Source: an uncultured Pelagibacteraceae bacterium (lineage in GTDB: Bacteria > Pseudomonadota > Alphaproteobacteria > Pelagibacterales > Pelagibacteraceae). Taken from it: a DNA stretch of 57,315 bases. Below are positions 3,075 to 32,541 of this stretch, one piece after another (the stretch's first letter is position 1; each line of letters starts with the position of its first letter). The stretch spans positions 1 through 57,315 of the forward strand of contig CABYXQ010000002.1 in assembly GCA_902522915.1 (NCBI GenBank), written 5' to 3'. The notes under the pieces were generated by a model. It did not search any database. It saw nothing but the letters and a program-made list of their open reading frames with translations, and had not been told where the DNA came from. The position numbers and the translations under genes were made by a program.

Positions 3075-4029
3075 CCCAATAATAATTATTAATGGTGAAC
3101 CTAATAGTGTTTTTTTAGAAATTTTTTTTAAATCTTTTAAATATAATAAATATAATACACCATTAATATTAATCTCTTCATTAAAACTACTAAAGCTACA
3201 GATGAAAAAATTAAAATTTAAAGCTAATATAAAGTTAATTGATTATCAAAACATAGATAAATTTAAGTTAGAAAAAAATTGTATTAACTTAATTGATGTT
3301 AAGTATGAAACAAATAAGGCTTTTGAAAAAATTTCAAAAAAATCTAATTTATTTATAAAAAATTCGTTCAAAATCGCTTTAAAACTTATCAAGCAAGGTG
3401 TAAGTAATAAATTAATTAACGGACCAATCTCAAAAAAAAGTTTTTTAGGAAAAAAATATCTTGGTATTACAGAATATTTAGCAAATAAATCAAAGTCTAA
3501 ATCAACTGCTATGTTAATATATAATAAAAAATTATCTGTTTGTCCAATGACAACTCACCTTCCAATTAAAATGGTTGCAAGAAAAATTAAAAAAAAATTA
3601 CTTTTTGAAAAAATTTCTTTAATAAATGATTTTTATAAAAACAATAGAGGTTTTAAACCAAAAATTGGTGTATTAGGATTAAACCCTCACTGTGAAAGTG
3701 TTCATAAATTTAATGAAGATGAAAAAATTTTAAAACCTGCAATTAAATATTTATCAAAATTAGGTTATAAAATTTCAGGACCGTTTCCCTCAGATACAAT
3801 TTTTTTATCAAATAATAGAAATAAATTTGATGTCATCGTAGGAATGTATCATGATCAAGTACTAACACCTTTAAAAACACTTTATGAATATGACGCAATC
3901 AATATTACTTTAGGTCTTCCCTTTTTAAGAATATCACCAGATCATGGTCCTAATATAGCAATGGTTGGTAAGAATAGCTCAAACCCATTAAGCTTAATAA
4001 ATGCAATTAAATTCTTGGATAGAAATTGA
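3064..4029 (+). CDS. pdxA: 4-hydroxythreonine-4-phosphate dehydrogenase
   Basis: NAD-dependent oxidation of 4-phosphohydroxy-L-threonine in the DXP-dependent pyridoxal-phosphate pathway; cytoplasmic, divalent-metal dependent. The three metal-binding histidines are visible at H165 (TTHLPI), H209 (LNPHCES) and H263 (MYHDQ). A conserved C-terminal 'SPDHGPNIA' follows at 291-299. At 321 residues it is of normal length. The glycine-rich 'NPHAGEGG' loop usual in PdxA is here 'NPHCESVHKF', a noticeable but conservative departure. It overlaps surA by 11 bases, and its stop TGA shares bases with the TTG start of rsmA. Confidence 0.92.
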   Translation: MKSNPIIIINGEPNSVFLEIFFKSFKYNKYNTPLILISSLKLLKLQMKKLKFKANIKLIDYQNIDKFKLEKNCINLIDVKYETNKAFEKISKKSNLFIKNSFKIALKLIKQGVSNKLINGPISKKSFLGKKYLGITEYLANKSKSKSTAMLIYNKKLSVCPMTTHLPIKMVARKIKKKLLFEKISLINDFYKNNRGFKPKIGVLGLNPHCESVHKFNEDEKILKPAIKYLSKLGYKISGPFPSDTIFLSNNRNKFDVIVGMYHDQVLTPLKTLYEYDAINITLGLPFLRISPDHGPNIAMVGKNSSNPLSLINAIKFLDRN

Positions 4030-27395: not shown

Positions 27396-28877
27396 TTAAG
27401 AATGACTAATCCAAATTGTTTTAGTTTGAAGAAATGAATTAAGTGCTTCTGTACCCTGATCTCTCGATAAGGATCCAGATTGTTTATAACCTCCGAAAGG
27501 AGTTTTGATATCTCCTTCTGAAAAAGTGTTAACTGATACAGTTCCACAAGGTAGGCTTTTAGCTAAATGAAAAGCACGGTTTATATCTTGAGTAAATACA
27601 CTTGCATGTAATCCATATTTTGAATTACTCGCAACTTTTAGAGCTTCTTCGTCATTTTTAACAGTCAATACTCCTAAAACAGGTCCAAAGATTTCTTCTT
27701 TTGCAATAGTCATATTTTCTTTTAAACCATCAAACAAAGTTGGTTTTGCATAAAAACCTTTTTGTTTAATATCTGAAATACCGCCTGACAAAAGTTTTGC
27801 ACCTTCATCTATTCCCTTTTGAATATAGCCATTAACTGTTTGTAAATGTCCCTTTGATATCATTGAACCCATATTAGATTTTAAATCTAGAGGATCGCCC
27901 ACTTTTATTCTTTTTACTTTTTTAATTACCTTATCTAGAAATTCGTCTTTAACTTTCTTGTGAACTATCTGTCTCATATTTGCTGAACAGTTTTGACCAC
28001 CATTCCAAAAAGCAGAATTTATTGCATTATCAATTAAGTCATCATTAATTTTAGCATCTTCTAAAACTATAAAGGGACTTTTACCACCCATCTCTAACGC
28101 AACAGGTTTTAAATTACTTTCACTTGAATACTTTAAAAAATAACCACCTACTTCCGTTGAACCCGTAAAAGAAACCGCATCAACATCTTTATGTCGACCA
28201 AGAGCTTCACCAACATCCCCATATCCTGGAAGCACGTTTAATACACCATCTGGAATTCCAGCTTCTTGAGCTATTTTTGCAACTCTAATTGCTGTTAACG
28301 GAGTATCTTCAGCAGGTTTAATAATAACTGAGCAGCCCGCTGCAAGAGCTGGTGCCATTTTCCAAACAGCCATCATTAAAGGGAAGTTCCAAGGAACAAT
28401 TCCTGCAACGACACCTATTGGTTCTTTAACGATTAAACTTGTAATGGATGGCTCTGTAGGACCAACTTTTCCAAATACTTTATCAATCAATTCTCCATAC
28501 CATTGAAAATGCATTGGGGCATCATTTGCAACTTCATTAATGCAATCTGTCACTAACTTTCCAGTATCAACACATTCTAAAACCGAATTTTCGTCTCCAT
28601 GTTTTCTAAGCAATTCTGCAAATTTTAATAAAACCTCTTTTCTATGCTCTGGTGAACTTCTCGACCAAACACCACTATTAAAAGCTTTCCTTGAAACTTT
28701 TACCGCTAAATTAACATCTTTATGATTACACTTAGCAACTGTACAAAGCATTTCTCCAGTAGCAGGATTTATGGTTTCAAATTTTTTACCATCAATAGCA
28801 TTAACATACTTTCCATTTATAAAAGCACGACCTTCAAATTTTAATTTTTTTGCAATTGATTTGTAATTAACTGTCAT
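27396..28877 (-). CDS. NAD(P)-dependent aldehyde dehydrogenase
   Basis: 493 residues, full-length ALDH superfamily. Catalytic E262 lies in 'ALEMGGKSP' and nucleophile C297 in 'NGGQNCSAN'. 'VPWNFPLMMAVWKMAPALAA' and 'SFTGSTEVG' mark the cofactor-binding region. The closest remembered relatives are gamma-glutamyl-gamma-aminobutyraldehyde or 4-aminobutyraldehyde dehydrogenases (PuuC-like), but substrate cannot be fixed from sequence. It lies upstream of the TRAP genes on the same strand with a 124-base gap, and its codon use is that of the host genome, unlike the TRAP genes. Confidence 0.88.
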   Translation of the reverse strand: MTVNYKSIAKKLKFEGRAFINGKYVNAIDGKKFETINPATGEMLCTVAKCNHKDVNLAVKVSRKAFNSGVWSRSSPEHRKEVLLKFAELLRKHGDENSVLECVDTGKLVTDCINEVANDAPMHFQWYGELIDKVFGKVGPTEPSITSLIVKEPIGVVAGIVPWNFPLMMAVWKMAPALAAGCSVIIKPAEDTPLTAIRVAKIAQEAGIPDGVLNVLPGYGDVGEALGRHKDVDAVSFTGSTEVGGYFLKYSSESNLKPVALEMGGKSPFIVLEDAKINDDLIDNAINSAFWNGGQNCSANMRQIVHKKVKDEFLDKVIKKVKRIKVGDPLDLKSNMGSMISKGHLQTVNGYIQKGIDEGAKLLSGGISDIKQKGFYAKPTLFDGLKENMTIAKEEIFGPVLGVLTVKNDEEALKVASNSKYGLHASVFTQDINRAFHLAKSLPCGTVSVNTFSEGDIKTPFGGYKQSGSLSRDQGTEALNSFLQTKTIWISHS

Positions 28878-29008
28878 GAAAAAATTAAGTTATTATTAAT
28901 AATTCAAATTATCAAGAATATTAATTAAACTTTAAAGACTTATAAATTTAATTTATAAGCTAGTATCCAAACCTGAACATATTGAGATGTAGCAAGGTCT
29001 AAAATAAT

Positions 29009-29173
29009 ATGAATAAAGAAAATGCAAGTAAACTCTGGAAAATTATTCAGGAAGCTGGCGATTATTTACGGCGTTAGAGGAACAACTTAATCCACATTAA
29101 CCTACCTGAAACTACACTAGTTATGTGTACTATTTAACTTTCACTAAAAAATTATTCGCTTAAAGACTCATCA
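29009..29173 (+). pseudogene. Decayed copy of the small gene at 30148-30375
   Basis: ATG at 29009 reads 22 codons (MNKENASKLWKIIQEAGDYL, then RR) to a TAG at 29075. This matches the start of the intact gene (MTEENRRKLWTLIKEAGDYL). After a frame change, faint similarity continues (QLNPH, then VYYLTFTKKLF against VALAVKEKF) through two further stops. The upstream 34 bases (28975-29008) also resemble the intact copy's leader (GAACTTTTGGAGATG, CAAGGT). It is therefore a duplicated, inactivated paralogue; the 22-residue peptide may still be translated. Confidence 0.78.
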
Positions 29174-29188
29174 ATTTTACAGTCAAAC

Positions 29189-29216
29189 TAGAACCACAAC
29201 TAGAACTTTTTGAGAT
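29189..29216 (+). repeat. 28-bp direct repeat, copy 1
   Basis: Begins TAGAACCACAACTAGAAC and ends TTTTTGAGAT. It differs from copy 2 (30100-30127) at two of 28 positions by hand alignment. The core is three AGAACY-like hexamers in tandem followed by a T-run and GAGAT. The two copies bracket the divergent lipoprotein genes, 911 bases apart. Confidence 0.85.
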
Positions 29217-29254
29217 AAATCAAACTAGAATTATATTAGGTCGAGTTATATTTC

Positions 29255-29482
29255 TTACCAACAATTAGTATAATACGCTTTAGCCCAAGAGTTGTAAGTA
29301 GTGGTACATCTTTTTGGAGTACTTGGTTGAATATACACCGGTCGTTGTTGATACGATTGACCATATGAAGTACCATTATAGCCATTCAAAGCATTATTAA
29401 GTGCTCTAATATCCGCCTCTGTACATCCATTTAAAATTAGCAGTGTTGATATTAAAAGTGCTATTTTAGTTATAACTTTCAT
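29255..29482 (-). CDS. Small predicted lipoprotein with C-terminal cysteine pair
   Basis: 75 residues. N-terminal signal 'MKVITKIALLISTLLILNGC' ends in a lipobox (LNGC), so C20 should be lipidated. The mature part is short and rich in Asn/Tyr/Gln. It ends with 'RCTTTYNSWAKAYYTNCW', two cysteines 13 residues apart that could form a disulfide. The divergent neighbour ends similarly (RC...C plus aromatic). No known family is recognised. The inferred site is the periplasmic face of a membrane. Confidence 0.7.
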   Translation of the reverse strand: MKVITKIALLISTLLILNGCTEADIRALNNALNGYNGTSYGQSYQQRPVYIQPSTPKRCTTTYNSWAKAYYTNCW

Positions 29483-29526
29483 TATTAACCTTAGACTGAT
29501 TCAAGTATAATTCAAAGCTTTATTTA

Positions 29527-29555
29527 TTGTTTATTTTAATGGTTTTTAATATGAT
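29527..29555 (+). promoter_or_regulatory. Candidate promoter for the 29568 lipoprotein gene
   Basis: TTGTTT at 29527-29532 and TATGAT at 29550-29555 are separated by 17 bases. The implied transcription start, about 29562, leaves a leader of only about 6 bases before ATG 29568, so translation would be nearly leaderless. Confidence 0.42.
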
Positions 29556-29567
29556 AATTTTAATAAA

Positions 29568-30086
29568 ATGAAAGTATTTAAGAATCTAGCCATACTCATA
29601 ATGCTTTCTAGCTGTTATGCAGACACAGCAATTATTGAATATAGTCAAAAGAAACATATGGTTGAATTGGGAGATACAATTAATAAAGCCTTACCAATTT
29701 TAGAAAATATGCATAGAACTGTTCCTGCAAATTGGCTTAGGTCTGCTGACCAATATTATGAGGGAGGAAAAAATTATTACATTCATTATCAAAGAACTGG
29801 TCATACTGAAGATGGTGTTATGACTGATGACGAATTTACACCTTATGTTTTTGCGGATAATAAGCTTGTGTCTATTGGATGGGCTGTTTTAGGAGGCCCA
29901 AGAAGCTATGGTAATGCATCTGTTGCAGCAGAAAATCAGAGAAGACGTTCTCAAGCACTAATGAATTTAAGTAACGCATTAATTCAACCTCAACCAACCT
30001 ATAATTACAATCCACTAGGCTTTAATTCTACAACAAGATGTGTGGCAACTAATACTGGATTTAATACAATTGTTAGATGTTACTAA
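29568..30086 (+). CDS. Predicted lipoprotein, 172 aa
   Basis: N-terminal 'MKVFKNLAILIMLSSC' has a short lipobox-like end (LSSC), making C16 the probable lipid site. The middle part 'NYYIHYQRTGHTEDGVMTDDEFTPYVFADNKLVSIGW' resembles, from memory, small outer-membrane lipoproteins of the SmpA/BamE-like or DUF3192 type that share 'DGxxTDDE(F/L)TP'. This is a loose impression. The tail has 'TRCVATNTGFNTIVRCY', again two cysteines and an aromatic end as in the divergent gene. No enzymatic motif was seen. Confidence 0.72.
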   Translation: MKVFKNLAILIMLSSCYADTAIIEYSQKKHMVELGDTINKALPILENMHRTVPANWLRSADQYYEGGKNYYIHYQRTGHTEDGVMTDDEFTPYVFADNKLVSIGWAVLGGPRSYGNASVAAENQRRRSQALMNLSNALIQPQPTYNYNPLGFNSTTRCVATNTGFNTIVRCY

Positions 30087-30099
30087 AGTTTATTGATAA

Positions 30100-30127
30100 T
30101 AGAACCAGAACTAGAACTTTTGGAGAT
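30100..30127 (+). repeat. 28-bp direct repeat, copy 2
   Basis: Begins TAGAACCAGAACTAGAAC and ends TTTTGGAGAT. It lies 20 bases before the ATG at 30148, and a weaker relative precedes the pseudogene at 28975. It may be part of the leader of this small gene family or a scar of duplication. A GGAG within it is too far from the start to serve as the ribosome site; AGAGGTT, just before the ATG, is nearer. Confidence 0.85.
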
Positions 30128-30147
30128 GTTACAAGGTTTTAGAGGTT

Positions 30148-30375
30148 ATGACAGAAGAAAATCGGCGTAAACTCTGGACTTTGATTAAGGAAGCTGGCGA
30201 TTATTTACGGGGCCAATTACCTGAACATCCAAATCATCCTAAAGGTCGTAACCCTTACGCACATGTTGCACTAGCTGTCAAAGAAAAATTTAATATAACT
30301 TATAAAGATATTCCTGATAATAAATTGGATGAAGTTATAAAATATATTGAATTTTTAAAAGAAAATCCAAGCTAA
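30148..30375 (+). CDS. Small cytoplasmic protein, ORF6C-like C-terminal motif
   Basis: 75 residues, no signal or membrane helix. An N-terminal helix (MTEENRRKLWTLIKEAGDYL) is followed by a Pro/His-rich linker 'GQLPEHPNHPKGRNPYAHV' and a C-terminal part 'KEKFNITYKDIPDNKLDEV', then 'IKYIEF'. The pattern 'YKDIP....(L/F)(D/E)E.I.YI' resembles the ORF6C-type module at the C-terminus of some phage antirepressors, as I recall them. If so, this may be a domesticated phage-derived nucleic-acid-associated piece; that is inference. A decayed paralogue lies at 29009. It converges with the threonine aldolase gene 1 base away. Confidence 0.72.
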   Translation: MTEENRRKLWTLIKEAGDYLRGQLPEHPNHPKGRNPYAHVALAVKEKFNITYKDIPDNKLDEVIKYIEFLKENPS

Positions 30376-30376
30376 A

Positions 30377-31423
30377 TTAAGACTTAATATAATTTAAAAA
30401 AGTTTCGATATCAGATGGATTGGTATTCCACGCTGTAACCAATCTAACTGCATTACCATCCCATTCATCATCATTAATTGTGTAACCTTCTGAATTTAGT
30501 TTATCAATTATTTCTTTTGGTATTTTTACAAATATTTCATTTGCGTCAGTTGGATAAGCAAGCTCAATATTTTTATGTATATTTAAACCTTGACTTAATT
30601 TTTGACCCATAGCGTTTGCATGTTTTGCGTTTTTCAACCAAACTTCATTGGAAAGATAGGCATATAATTGTGCTGATACAAAACTCATTTTTGAAAGTAA
30701 ATGCCCAGCCCTTTTCATCAAAAAAGGTAAGTTTCCGATTAATTCTGGTTTAAAAAAAATTATTGCTTCTGCTGCTAAACATCCATTTTTCGTTGCTCCA
30801 AATGAAAGTACATCAATACCAGATTTCCACGTCATTTCTGCAGGACTACAATTTAATGAAATCAATGCATTAGCAAATCTAGCCCCATCCATATGCATAT
30901 TAAGTTTATGTTTATGTGCAATCTCAGAGATTTTTTTTATTTCATCCAATTTATAAGCTTCTCCAGTTTCACAAAGCTGTGTAATGCTTATTGAAGAAGG
31001 TTGGGTATGATGGACTATACCCTTTCCAACTATTGATTTATCTAGTTCTTCAGCTGTAATTTTTCCATTAACTCCATTTAGAGTTACTAATTTTGCACCT
31101 CCAGTATAAAATTCAGGTGCTCCACATTCATCTACATTAATATGAGAAAGCTTATGGCAATAAATATTGCCAAATGATGGTGTCATTGTTGATAAAGCTA
31201 ATGCATTTGCTGCAGTTCCAGAAGATGTTGGAAAAACAACTACGTCCTTTTCAAATATGTCTGAAAATTTATCTTGCAAACTTTTTGAAATTTCATCATT
31301 ACCATATGGTGTTCTATCTCCATCGTTAGCTTTTAAAATAGCATCTAACACTTCGGGACAAGCACCAGTAACATTATCTGAAGCAAATTTTATTCTTTCT
31401 CTTTTTGTTTTAATTTTAGCCAT
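30377..31423 (-). CDS. ltaE: Low-specificity L-threonine aldolase
   Basis: PLP enzyme cleaving threonine (or allo-threonine) to glycine and acetaldehyde. About 348 residues: 'FASDNVTGACPEVLDA' at the N-terminus, 'MHMDGARFANAL' holding the PLP-contacting Asp, and the Schiff-base lysine K212 in 'LSFGATKNGC'. ATG at 31423 is preferred; a GTG at 31429 would overlap the upstream stop as GTGA. It directly follows the amidinotransferase gene, so a glycine-producing and a glycine-using enzyme are probably co-expressed. Confidence 0.87.
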   Translation of the reverse strand: MAKIKTKRERIKFASDNVTGACPEVLDAILKANDGDRTPYGNDEISKSLQDKFSDIFEKDVVVFPTSSGTAANALALSTMTPSFGNIYCHKLSHINVDECGAPEFYTGGAKLVTLNGVNGKITAEELDKSIVGKGIVHHTQPSSISITQLCETGEAYKLDEIKKISEIAHKHKLNMHMDGARFANALISLNCSPAEMTWKSGIDVLSFGATKNGCLAAEAIIFFKPELIGNLPFLMKRAGHLLSKMSFVSAQLYAYLSNEVWLKNAKHANAMGQKLSQGLNIHKNIELAYPTDANEIFVKIPKEIIDKLNSEGYTINDDEWDGNAVRLVTAWNTNPSDIETFLNYIKS

Positions 31424-31425
31424 AT

Positions 31426-32541
31426 TCACTGTTTAGGAAAATAGTCTTTCAATTCGCCTTCTCGATAAACATCAGCTGTACAACAGTGTAACCCTCCACC
31501 AAACGCATACGCATCTCTTAAATCAACTGGCACAACTTCCATGCCTATTTTATCTAGTTGTTCAGCTTGGTATACTTCACTTTTTTCTACACAAACAGTT
31601 TTTGGATCTAATACTAAGACATTCATCGATAGCCATGTAGAAGAATAACATAAAGGTGGTGGTTCATTATGCGCGGGCTGTGCAGAGTCAATTATCTCCC
31701 AACCATTATCTTCAAATAGTTTTCTTTGATCTACTGGTAATCTTCTTTGAGGATTATTTATAATTAATCCCTCTTTAATAGGGGTAAATGTTGCATCAAT
31801 ATGAATTGGATAAGGATCTCCAGGAAAATTCACTGCATGTACTCTATGATCTTTGTAATGTCTTTTTAACCAGTCAATCCCCTTTAGGTTAGTAGTAAAC
31901 CCATGCTGCACCACTAAATCTTTTCCAAATCTTAAAACATCAGCAGCATCAAATAAAGGCTCTTCCTCTGTTGTCACAAAGAATTTATCTTCAGTCCATT
32001 TCAGTCTTTTTTGAATTCCAATTTTGTCTGATAAATAATCTTTTCGATAATCGGCATCAGTTAATCTTGGTTTAGGAGCGGACTCGTGTCTCATATTTGG
32101 GTCAGAATTATAATATTCTTTTAATAATGGTCGATAACAAAGATATTCAAACCATCTACATCTATAACTCATAGTTGCTTCCAAAATCTCGTTACCAACA
32201 GTCAACAAAACATCTCTCGGAGGCATGCAGCCAAACATAGTTTCTGCTTCCCAATCTGGTGTTGAGGTTTTTTGATTAAAGTTTATTGGTGTAGGTCGGT
32301 CTACTTTAACCCCTCTTTTAACTAGCATATTAGCAAAATCATCTAAAAGTTGATTAGCTTTATCAACAGTGTCTTTAGTTCTAGGTCCAAACTGACCTCT
32401 CATGTCCGAGTCTTCTGGAACTTTTGCGTCAAGTGCTGGTTCAGGTGCTGGAATACAGGTTCCATCAGCTTTTCCGACTATGACATGTCTAAGAGGGTCC
32501 CATTCATTCCAGCTATTAACAATAACTTTTTTATTAGTCAT
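31426..32541 (-). CDS. Glycine amidinotransferase-like enzyme (AGAT family)
   Basis: 371 residues of the guanidino-modifying superfamily, closest by eye to L-arginine:glycine amidinotransferase. The opening 'NSWNEWDPLRHVIVG' is AGAT-like. The catalytic triad is visible: aspartate in 'LFDAADVLRFG' (D198/D201), H247 in 'PIHIDATF', and C353 in 'GGGLHCCTADV', where vertebrate AGAT has GGGFHCWTCDV. The expected reaction is arginine plus glycine (or another amine) to a guanidino compound and ornithine. It lies in a leftward run between a DMT transporter and threonine aldolase. The acceptor amine is not certain. Confidence 0.85.
   Translation of the reverse strand: MTNKKVIVNSWNEWDPLRHVIVGKADGTCIPAPEPALDAKVPEDSDMRGQFGPRTKDTVDKANQLLDDFANMLVKRGVKVDRPTPINFNQKTSTPDWEAETMFGCMPPRDVLLTVGNEILEATMSYRCRWFEYLCYRPLLKEYYNSDPNMRHESAPKPRLTDADYRKDYLSDKIGIQKRLKWTEDKFFVTTEEEPLFDAADVLRFGKDLVVQHGFTTNLKGIDWLKRHYKDHRVHAVNFPGDPYPIHIDATFTPIKEGLIINNPQRRLPVDQRKLFEDNGWEIIDSAQPAHNEPPPLCYSSTWLSMNVLVLDPKTVCVEKSEVYQAEQLDKIGMEVVPVDLRDAYAFGGGLHCCTADVYREGELKDYFPKQ

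Follow-up and report, generated by a model that had tools for sequence, protein, structure and literature searches.

Integrons gather small cassettes in tandem at one chromosomal site, with the integrase encoded outside the cassette. Tycheposons are said to come originally from Prochlorococcus. In the accessible text of PMC10872708, they are cargo-carrying elements of streamlined aquatic bacteria, 4 to 200 kbp long and associated with tyrosine recombinases and tRNA genes. CIMEs, as presented in the accessible part of PMC5704250, carry no integration genes, retain both attL and attR, occur in tandem, and are decay products of ICEs or IMEs. The nearest described case found is that of the ssrA islands of Dehalococcoides, which, in the accessible text, lie in tandem at one gene, have direct repeats of a portion of it at their ends, and carry variable cargo; an integration module is often absent (16 islands have one and 15 do not), and the 15 module-less islands have been suggested to be cis-mobilisable elements (PMC3146451). 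These islands use a serine recombinase, the 3' end of the tmRNA gene, and a 20-bp repeat (PMC3146451).

The locus described here lies in a window of 57,315 nucleotides from an uncultured Pelagibacteraceae (SAR11) bacterium. It very probably represents a 1,139-bp cassette without an integrase (29070 to 30208, plus strand, core to core), inserted site-specifically into the 5' end of a 75-aa protein gene, termed g75 here; such cassettes are most likely moved in trans by satellite elements of about 9 kb. In contrast to the Dehalococcoides islands, the SAR11 cassettes are small, have arms of the tyrosine integrase type, and occupy a protein-coding gene at its 5' end, with the integrase on the separate ~9-kb elements; the window contains no tmRNA (ARAGORN), and the linked integrase belongs to PF00589/phrog_1. 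They differ from tycheposons in their target (a protein gene, with no tRNA gene in the window), in their size of 0.2 to 6.8 kb, and in the absence of a recombinase inside. Like integron cassettes, they are small, stand in tandem at one site, and do not encode the integrase; unlike those, they end in arm-type sites, and each cassette restores the target gene. A PF00589 search finds no recombinase at the locus; the same genome (assembly 73% complete) yields a single tyrosine recombinase, a protein of ~325 aa, which is encoded on another contig, C34, and not as an IntI beside the array.

Comparison of the window with itself reveals a 111-nt direct repeat (28961 to 29071 and 30100 to 30210, 74% identical) that spans the leader and the first 21 codons of g75 and contains, near its end, an identical 22-mer (29050 to 29071 and 30189 to 30210, plus strand). 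The intact g75 occupies positions 30148 to 30375, whereas the copy starting at 29009 meets an in-frame TAG after 22 codons. A 28-nt repeat at 29189 to 29216 and 30100 to 30127 is identical at 26 of 28 positions (93%), with a third, weaker copy (71%) at 28961 to 28988. A search of the genome's 58 contigs (1.01 Mb, assembly 73% complete) with positions 28940 to 29250 returns only one other place, at an E value of 1.1e-15, and no third match, so that the repeat is not due to chance. Between the repeats lie two divergent lipoprotein-like ORFs, the only ones of at least 60 aa in the insert. One (29255 to 29482, minus strand, 75 aa, LNGC motif) has no Pfam match; the other (29568 to 30086, plus strand, 172 aa, LSSC motif) shows weak similarity to DUF3192, at 24.3 bits against a cut-off of 26.9. 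To the left of the first lies a 377-nt gap between ORFs (28878 to 29254). An earlier note, made from the letters of this DNA, had pointed out the repeated gene start and leader, the 26/28 match, the divergent lipoprotein pair, the 377-base stretch, and the absence of a transposase or integrase, and in these observations it was accurate.

The meaning of the repeats becomes clear from a near-identical relative without the insert, a contig of the single cell AG-390-P19 (L112). In this relative, the same aldehyde dehydrogenase gene is followed by 131 nt and then by one intact g75. Its 400-nt left flank agrees at 394 of 400 positions with that of the truncated copy in the window and at 130 of 400 with the region upstream of the intact gene; likewise, the first 63 nt of its g75 agree with the truncated copy at 61 positions and with the intact gene at 49. 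The remainder of the gene shows the reverse, with 165 of 165 identities to the intact gene and 43 of 165 to the sequence past the truncated copy, and the downstream region agrees at 357 of 372 positions. These reciprocal identities indicate that the truncated copy is the old start of the gene, that the intact gene combines the old body with an imported start, and that 1,139 bp came in between. The arrangement is the attL/attR pair that a site-specific integration should leave when its core lies within the first 21 codons. The older leader, on the attB side of attL, is then 28878 to 29008 (plus strand), and attL is 29009 to 29077 (plus strand), with old codons 1 to 20 followed by element sequence and the in-frame TAG; in the restored g75 (30148 to 30375, plus strand), the 5' end comes from the element (attR), codons 22 to 75 being pre-existing. 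Strand exchange is placed within the common 22-mer, where the exact crossover is not fixed.

The earlier note had viewed the locus as a duplicated gene with one dead copy, suggesting a recently mobile or amplifying module and perhaps an integration or duplication event. Mobility is borne out by the insert-free relative and by a copy number that varies among relatives, which is what the proposed comparison of the locus was to look for; the outcome named as speaking against it, the same two copies in all close relatives, did not occur. The reciprocal identities with L112 show integration and not gene duplication. The dead-copy reading has the mechanism wrong: the left fragment is the old 5' end, and the intact gene joins the old body to the 5' end of the insert. 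Amplification is not seen, as the genome (assembly 73% complete) has no further match to the repeat region.

The leader in L112 has, like that of the window (28959 to 28988), a degenerate pair of arm-like sites at positions -50 and -38 relative to the ATG. L112 lacks the present insert, yet its site is not pristine: the pair probably marks where an older insertion had its right end, and this accounts for the weak third occurrence of the 28-nt repeat at 28961. Two other single cells (L158 and L164, 7774 to 8922) share the aldehyde dehydrogenase flank and have a hydrolase-like gene before g75, presumably of the epoxide-hydrolase-like family; the right arms are kept there, and the left copy was not found.

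Six further pairs of loci with and without an insert were found in the same genus. Their left flanks are 94 to 99.75% identical over ~400 nt (99.75% over 400 nt in the pair G047/G031), the inserts measure 1,199 to 5,182 bp, and in every pair the identity switches reciprocally inside the core. Four loci supply the insert-free members of these pairs. In L044, no arms precede the gene; L040, L050, and L052 have a degenerate arm-like pair each, which may be the trace of an older insertion. A rival reading, in which homologous recombination, ordinary or illegitimate, duplicated the gene start and something unrelated was inserted in between, would fit the different divergence of the two copies and the Xer-like size of the only tyrosine recombinase found in the genome. 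It is already contradicted by the reciprocal flank identities with L112, by the identity switch at this core in the six further pairs, and by the fixed offsets and matching of the arms described below, and is most improbable.

The gene itself is widespread. Protein searches find g75 in 68 of 101 relatives and in 17 of the 22 more complete ones; such searches miss most partial copies (one match each in G024 and G031, despite extra copies there) and say little on relatives lacking a second match. The 38-nt core, with at most three mismatches, is present in 215 of 399 same-genus genomes (0 for a reversed-pattern control). At least two core matches, by hand count of the table, occur in 55 of the 399, with a maximum of four; in three of the 55 (G151, G211, and G332) the copies are on different contigs. 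The window scores only one core match, as its intact copy has more than three mismatches. Two or more copies are present in 26 of 80 named loci, some of which come from the same genomes as those given G numbers here. In the sister family, an att profile detects none or one copy per locus (nine loci). Of 40 truncated copies, which include three attP copies, that of the window, and one at a second locus (L098), 36 stop after 22 codons, the stop coming from the insert. Near position 6778 of L098 (G191:C23:74000-87000), arms stand ahead of a core copy that lacks a g75 body; it is on a contig other than that of the array of the same genome and is a possible secondary attachment site.

Altogether, 57 distinct inserted units were compared (63 minus six identical inserts), mostly from loci picked for two or more copies and hence not a random sample. 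They range from 0.2 to 6.8 kb, the first 33 of them from 749 to 6,847 bp. A left-end block is matched at 22 or more of 31 positions in 52 of the 57 units, against 5 of 1,858 interior control windows, and a right-end box at 17 or more of 22 positions in 40 units, against 3 of 1,858 control windows; both occur together in 39 units. Words of the form ACTnnnnnn stand at fixed distances from the start codon: at +177 in 45 and +189 in 44 of the 57 units, and at -50/-49 in 49 and -38 in 50. The words vary between units and are alike at the two ends of one unit. Fifty units have arm pairs at both ends, and in 44 of these the pairs agree at 8 or more of 9 positions; the observed mean agreement was reached in none of 20,000 permutations. 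In the first set of units, the arms match in 30 of 33. The six units with unlike ends, such as those in L034, L094, and L095, would be expected if a deletion had fused two cassettes. None of the 57 units encodes a relative of the three satellite integrases described below (tblastn, E value of at most 1e-3).

In the window, the left-end block (29149 to 29179, plus strand) matches at 28 of 31 positions, the left arm-type sites (29187 to 29232, plus strand) begin at 29187, 29199, and 29224, that is, at +178, +190, and +215 from the left ATG, and the right ones (30098 to 30118, plus strand) begin at 30098 and 30110, at -50 and -38. The 28-bp repeats are paired arm-type sites at both ends of the insert and not a separate duplication. 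The word at +215 is found in the window alone among the 57 units (L120 has one at +217). At the right end, the conserved box matches at only 14 of 22 positions and the outer arm (30098) is degenerate, with AAT in place of ACT; therefore, this copy may no longer move.

The integration model itself is well supported. The attachment site is the start of g75, and the element brings a leader and the first ~20 codons. Integration leaves the old 5' fragment upstream as attL, closed by the in-frame stop of the element, and attR gives g75 a new leader, start codon, and N terminus with the reading frame whole. The paired 9-bp arms, which keep constant distances from the core on either side, would be bound by a lambda-type, heterobivalent tyrosine integrase. 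Lambda-type integrases have an arm-binding domain, and XerCD are not known to have one. A lambda-type enzyme is suggested by the paired arms together with the large integrase that lies beside the same site in the satellites. Insertion by host Xer recombinases at a dif-like site, as in an IMEX-type element, would account for cassettes without an integrase of their own, and 8 of 10 genomes searched have a single PF00589 protein of ~311 to 325 aa, Xer-like by size; but a pair of arms at each side calls for an arm-binding domain in the recombinase, and the ~9-kb elements, which have the same site, encode a large integrase themselves, which makes an Xer-mediated insertion improbable.

These virus-like elements are known from three IMG/VR records of 8,983 to 9,070 bp (L073, L074, and L198, the last being the record of L111). 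Their exact terminal repeats of 29, 98, and 81 nt, respectively, indicate that they are probably circular. All three carry the leader and 20 codons of g75 as attP, with an intact tyrosine integrase ORF 65 to 105 nt past it (581 aa in L073, 575 aa in L074, and 571 aa in L198). Besides the integrase (the PF00589/phrog_1 protein mentioned above), scans of L073 proteins (ten by Pfam, nine by PHROGs) recognize an AEP primase/DUF5906 protein and a RusA-like resolvase, and none of the scanned proteins matches a virion structural gene. As far as the accessible descriptions go, PICI, PICMI, and VEIME satellites likewise combine an integrase with a primase-helicase, L073 being like them in the lack of a structural match; the ~9-kb elements are distinguished by their site, the 5' end of g75. 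Searches against known phages gave no protein match and one irrelevant DNA match (E value of 0.3). The arm words of the three satellites stand at -50 or -49, -38, +178, +190, and +215, and the left arms of the window fall on the same positions, so that its insert joins a cassette-type end block with a satellite-like arm set. Non-autonomous cassettes would be moved in trans by such satellites, with their integrase of 571 to 581 aa and primase-helicase; excision by the same enzyme and carriage in particles may be part of the process. A close homologue of the satellite integrases is found in only 1 of 399 genomes (G198), where it is broken, and four others are 28 to 38% alike; hence, cassette and helper are not observed together in one cell.

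The cassettes might instead be decayed satellites that lost their integrase by deletion and kept the att ends and cargo, with no movement in trans. In favor of such decay, the arms of the satellites fall in almost the same register, the +215 word that corresponds to their third arm is unique to the window among 57 units, and G198 contains a broken integrase. In addition, the frame at 29185 to 29241 reads KLEPQLELFEINQTRIILG, resembling KLDIKLELGEIKQTRTKRK, which lies close to where the L073 integrase begins, but this KLxxxLE reading is for the most part a consequence of the arm repeats. The left-end block, present in 52 of 57 units, reaches at best 16 to 17 of 31 matches in the satellites, in the same place, and the right box 12 of 22; with end blocks so weak in the satellites, the cassettes appear to form a separate family. 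Several cassettes are, moreover, far more alike than the host flanks. Among the 10 pairs with a comparable flank, one has cassettes 96.5% identical over 1,669 nt with flanks at 84.5%, and others show 99.7% (314 nt) versus 84.5% and 97.9% (280 nt) versus 74.2%; in 3 of the 10, the cassettes are less alike than the flanks (70.0 versus 81.0%, 71.8 versus 90.0%, and 76.5 versus 79.8%). Decay is the less likely reading; it is kept as a rival because three results speak against current movement: a close integrase relative occurs in only 1 of 399 genomes and is broken there, no free cassettes were found (exact IUPAC patterns of the left and right ends gave 0 matches each in viral contigs), and the right end of the window is degenerate.

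The same question bears on the relation to CIMEs, which the SAR11 cassettes resemble in lacking integration genes, in being flanked by attL and attR, and in their tandem arrangement (accessible part of PMC5704250). No integrase is found inside, nor are transfer genes, as judged from the 25 of 92 Pfam families listed for 94 of the 115 cargo ORFs. The cassettes differ in having common end blocks, which are absent from the three autonomous elements; for an origin by gene loss, the third arm of the window at +215 and these blocks point in opposite directions.

On the preferred reading, cassettes moved in trans, the mapped recurring entry point, matched ends, restriction-modification cargo, and candidate helper offer a concrete route of gene gain in SAR11, and the att reaction at g75 is directly testable. 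The available portions of two SAR11 genomics papers (PMC7318151, PMC12416821) mention genomic islands and, next to one operon, tyrosine recombinases together with tRNA genes, and in these portions the g75 integration site is not mentioned; no description of it was found in the literature searched, a body largely outside subscription journals. A wider proposal, tentative and given slightly less than an even chance, is that SAR11 has an integrase-free cassette platform, integron-like but with lambda-type chemistry, on which small restriction-modification, defense-like, and metabolic cassettes would stack at the g75 start and swap its leader, start codon, and N terminus, the arms serving as "barcodes" for a recombinase private to each class and supplied in trans by the ~9-kb satellites.

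The sequence of g75 is consistent with repeated replacement of its start. Over 79 distinct genes, the synonymous difference is 0.170 in codons 4 to 20 and 0.349 in codons 23 to 75. The N-terminal types MNKENASKLWK, MTEENRRKLWT, and MTPENSQKLWK seem, from the alignment alone, to be mixed among gene bodies, as would be expected if elements replace the start. Mobile elements may thus exchange the leader and N terminus of a conserved gene, and strain comparisons should treat the two parts of g75 separately. The strong nucleotide conservation of codons 4 to 20 could also reflect a regulatory RNA or leader peptide, retained and copied for its own function; this is highly improbable, as Rfam searches of 28000 to 31500 give four weak matches, all far below the gathering score and none over the repeat, and the copies lie at insert ends and, as attP, in the ~9-kb elements. 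The synonymous difference is also low near the 3' end (0.26 to 0.29 in codons 47 to 70, with 0.264 in codons 54 to 70, versus ~0.41 in mid-gene), which would fit a second att site; selection or such a site may contribute to the low values. A fourth record (L075/G441) contains an intact g75 with satellite-like arms before it. Here, the 3' part of g75 and ~30 nt past it are repeated, with 134 of 135 identities, at 393 to 500 of L196 (G441:C1:1-8000) and 3008 to 3232 of L197, adjoining a different integrase that is 28 to 31% identical. As the repeat bounds a satellite-like element on either side, the 3' end looks like a second att site, and integration would seem to target g75 at its 5' as well as its 3' end. 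In the chromosome, none of the 144 loci with a match (150 searched) had more than one 3' fragment. The g75 protein itself gives only weak leads (DUF2281, 14.1 bits; ORF6C, 13 bits; phrog_463 antirepressor, E value of 0.0075). Its AlphaFold2 model (pLDDT of 89.2) consists of three helices and has no PDB match at an E value of 0.001 or below (the best is 1.8), and no function is therefore named for it.

The cargo of the window is rare. Among 297 genomes of the order, three, its own included, have homologues of the 172-aa lipoprotein, and the 75-aa lipoprotein is found only in its own genome among 201 of the same genus. In the other cassettes, scans of 94 of the 115 ORFs of at least 95 aa (the cargo of the window was scanned separately) identify type I, II, and IIG restriction-modification systems, the defense candidates Mko and HEC-05, trypsin-like peptidases, and other enzymes, including a T5orf172 match that is presumably a GIY-YIG-type enzyme. 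PADLOC matches were obtained for 7 of 10 large cargo proteins, which were chosen for size, so that this fraction overstates the share of defense cargo. A 95-aa ORF at 3756 to 4040 of L093, also present in units of L059, L076, and L078, lies just past the left end; its DNA is 97.7 to 99.7% identical over 307 to 331 nt in otherwise different cassettes, and two matches to DUF1330 indicate that the protein probably belongs to that family.
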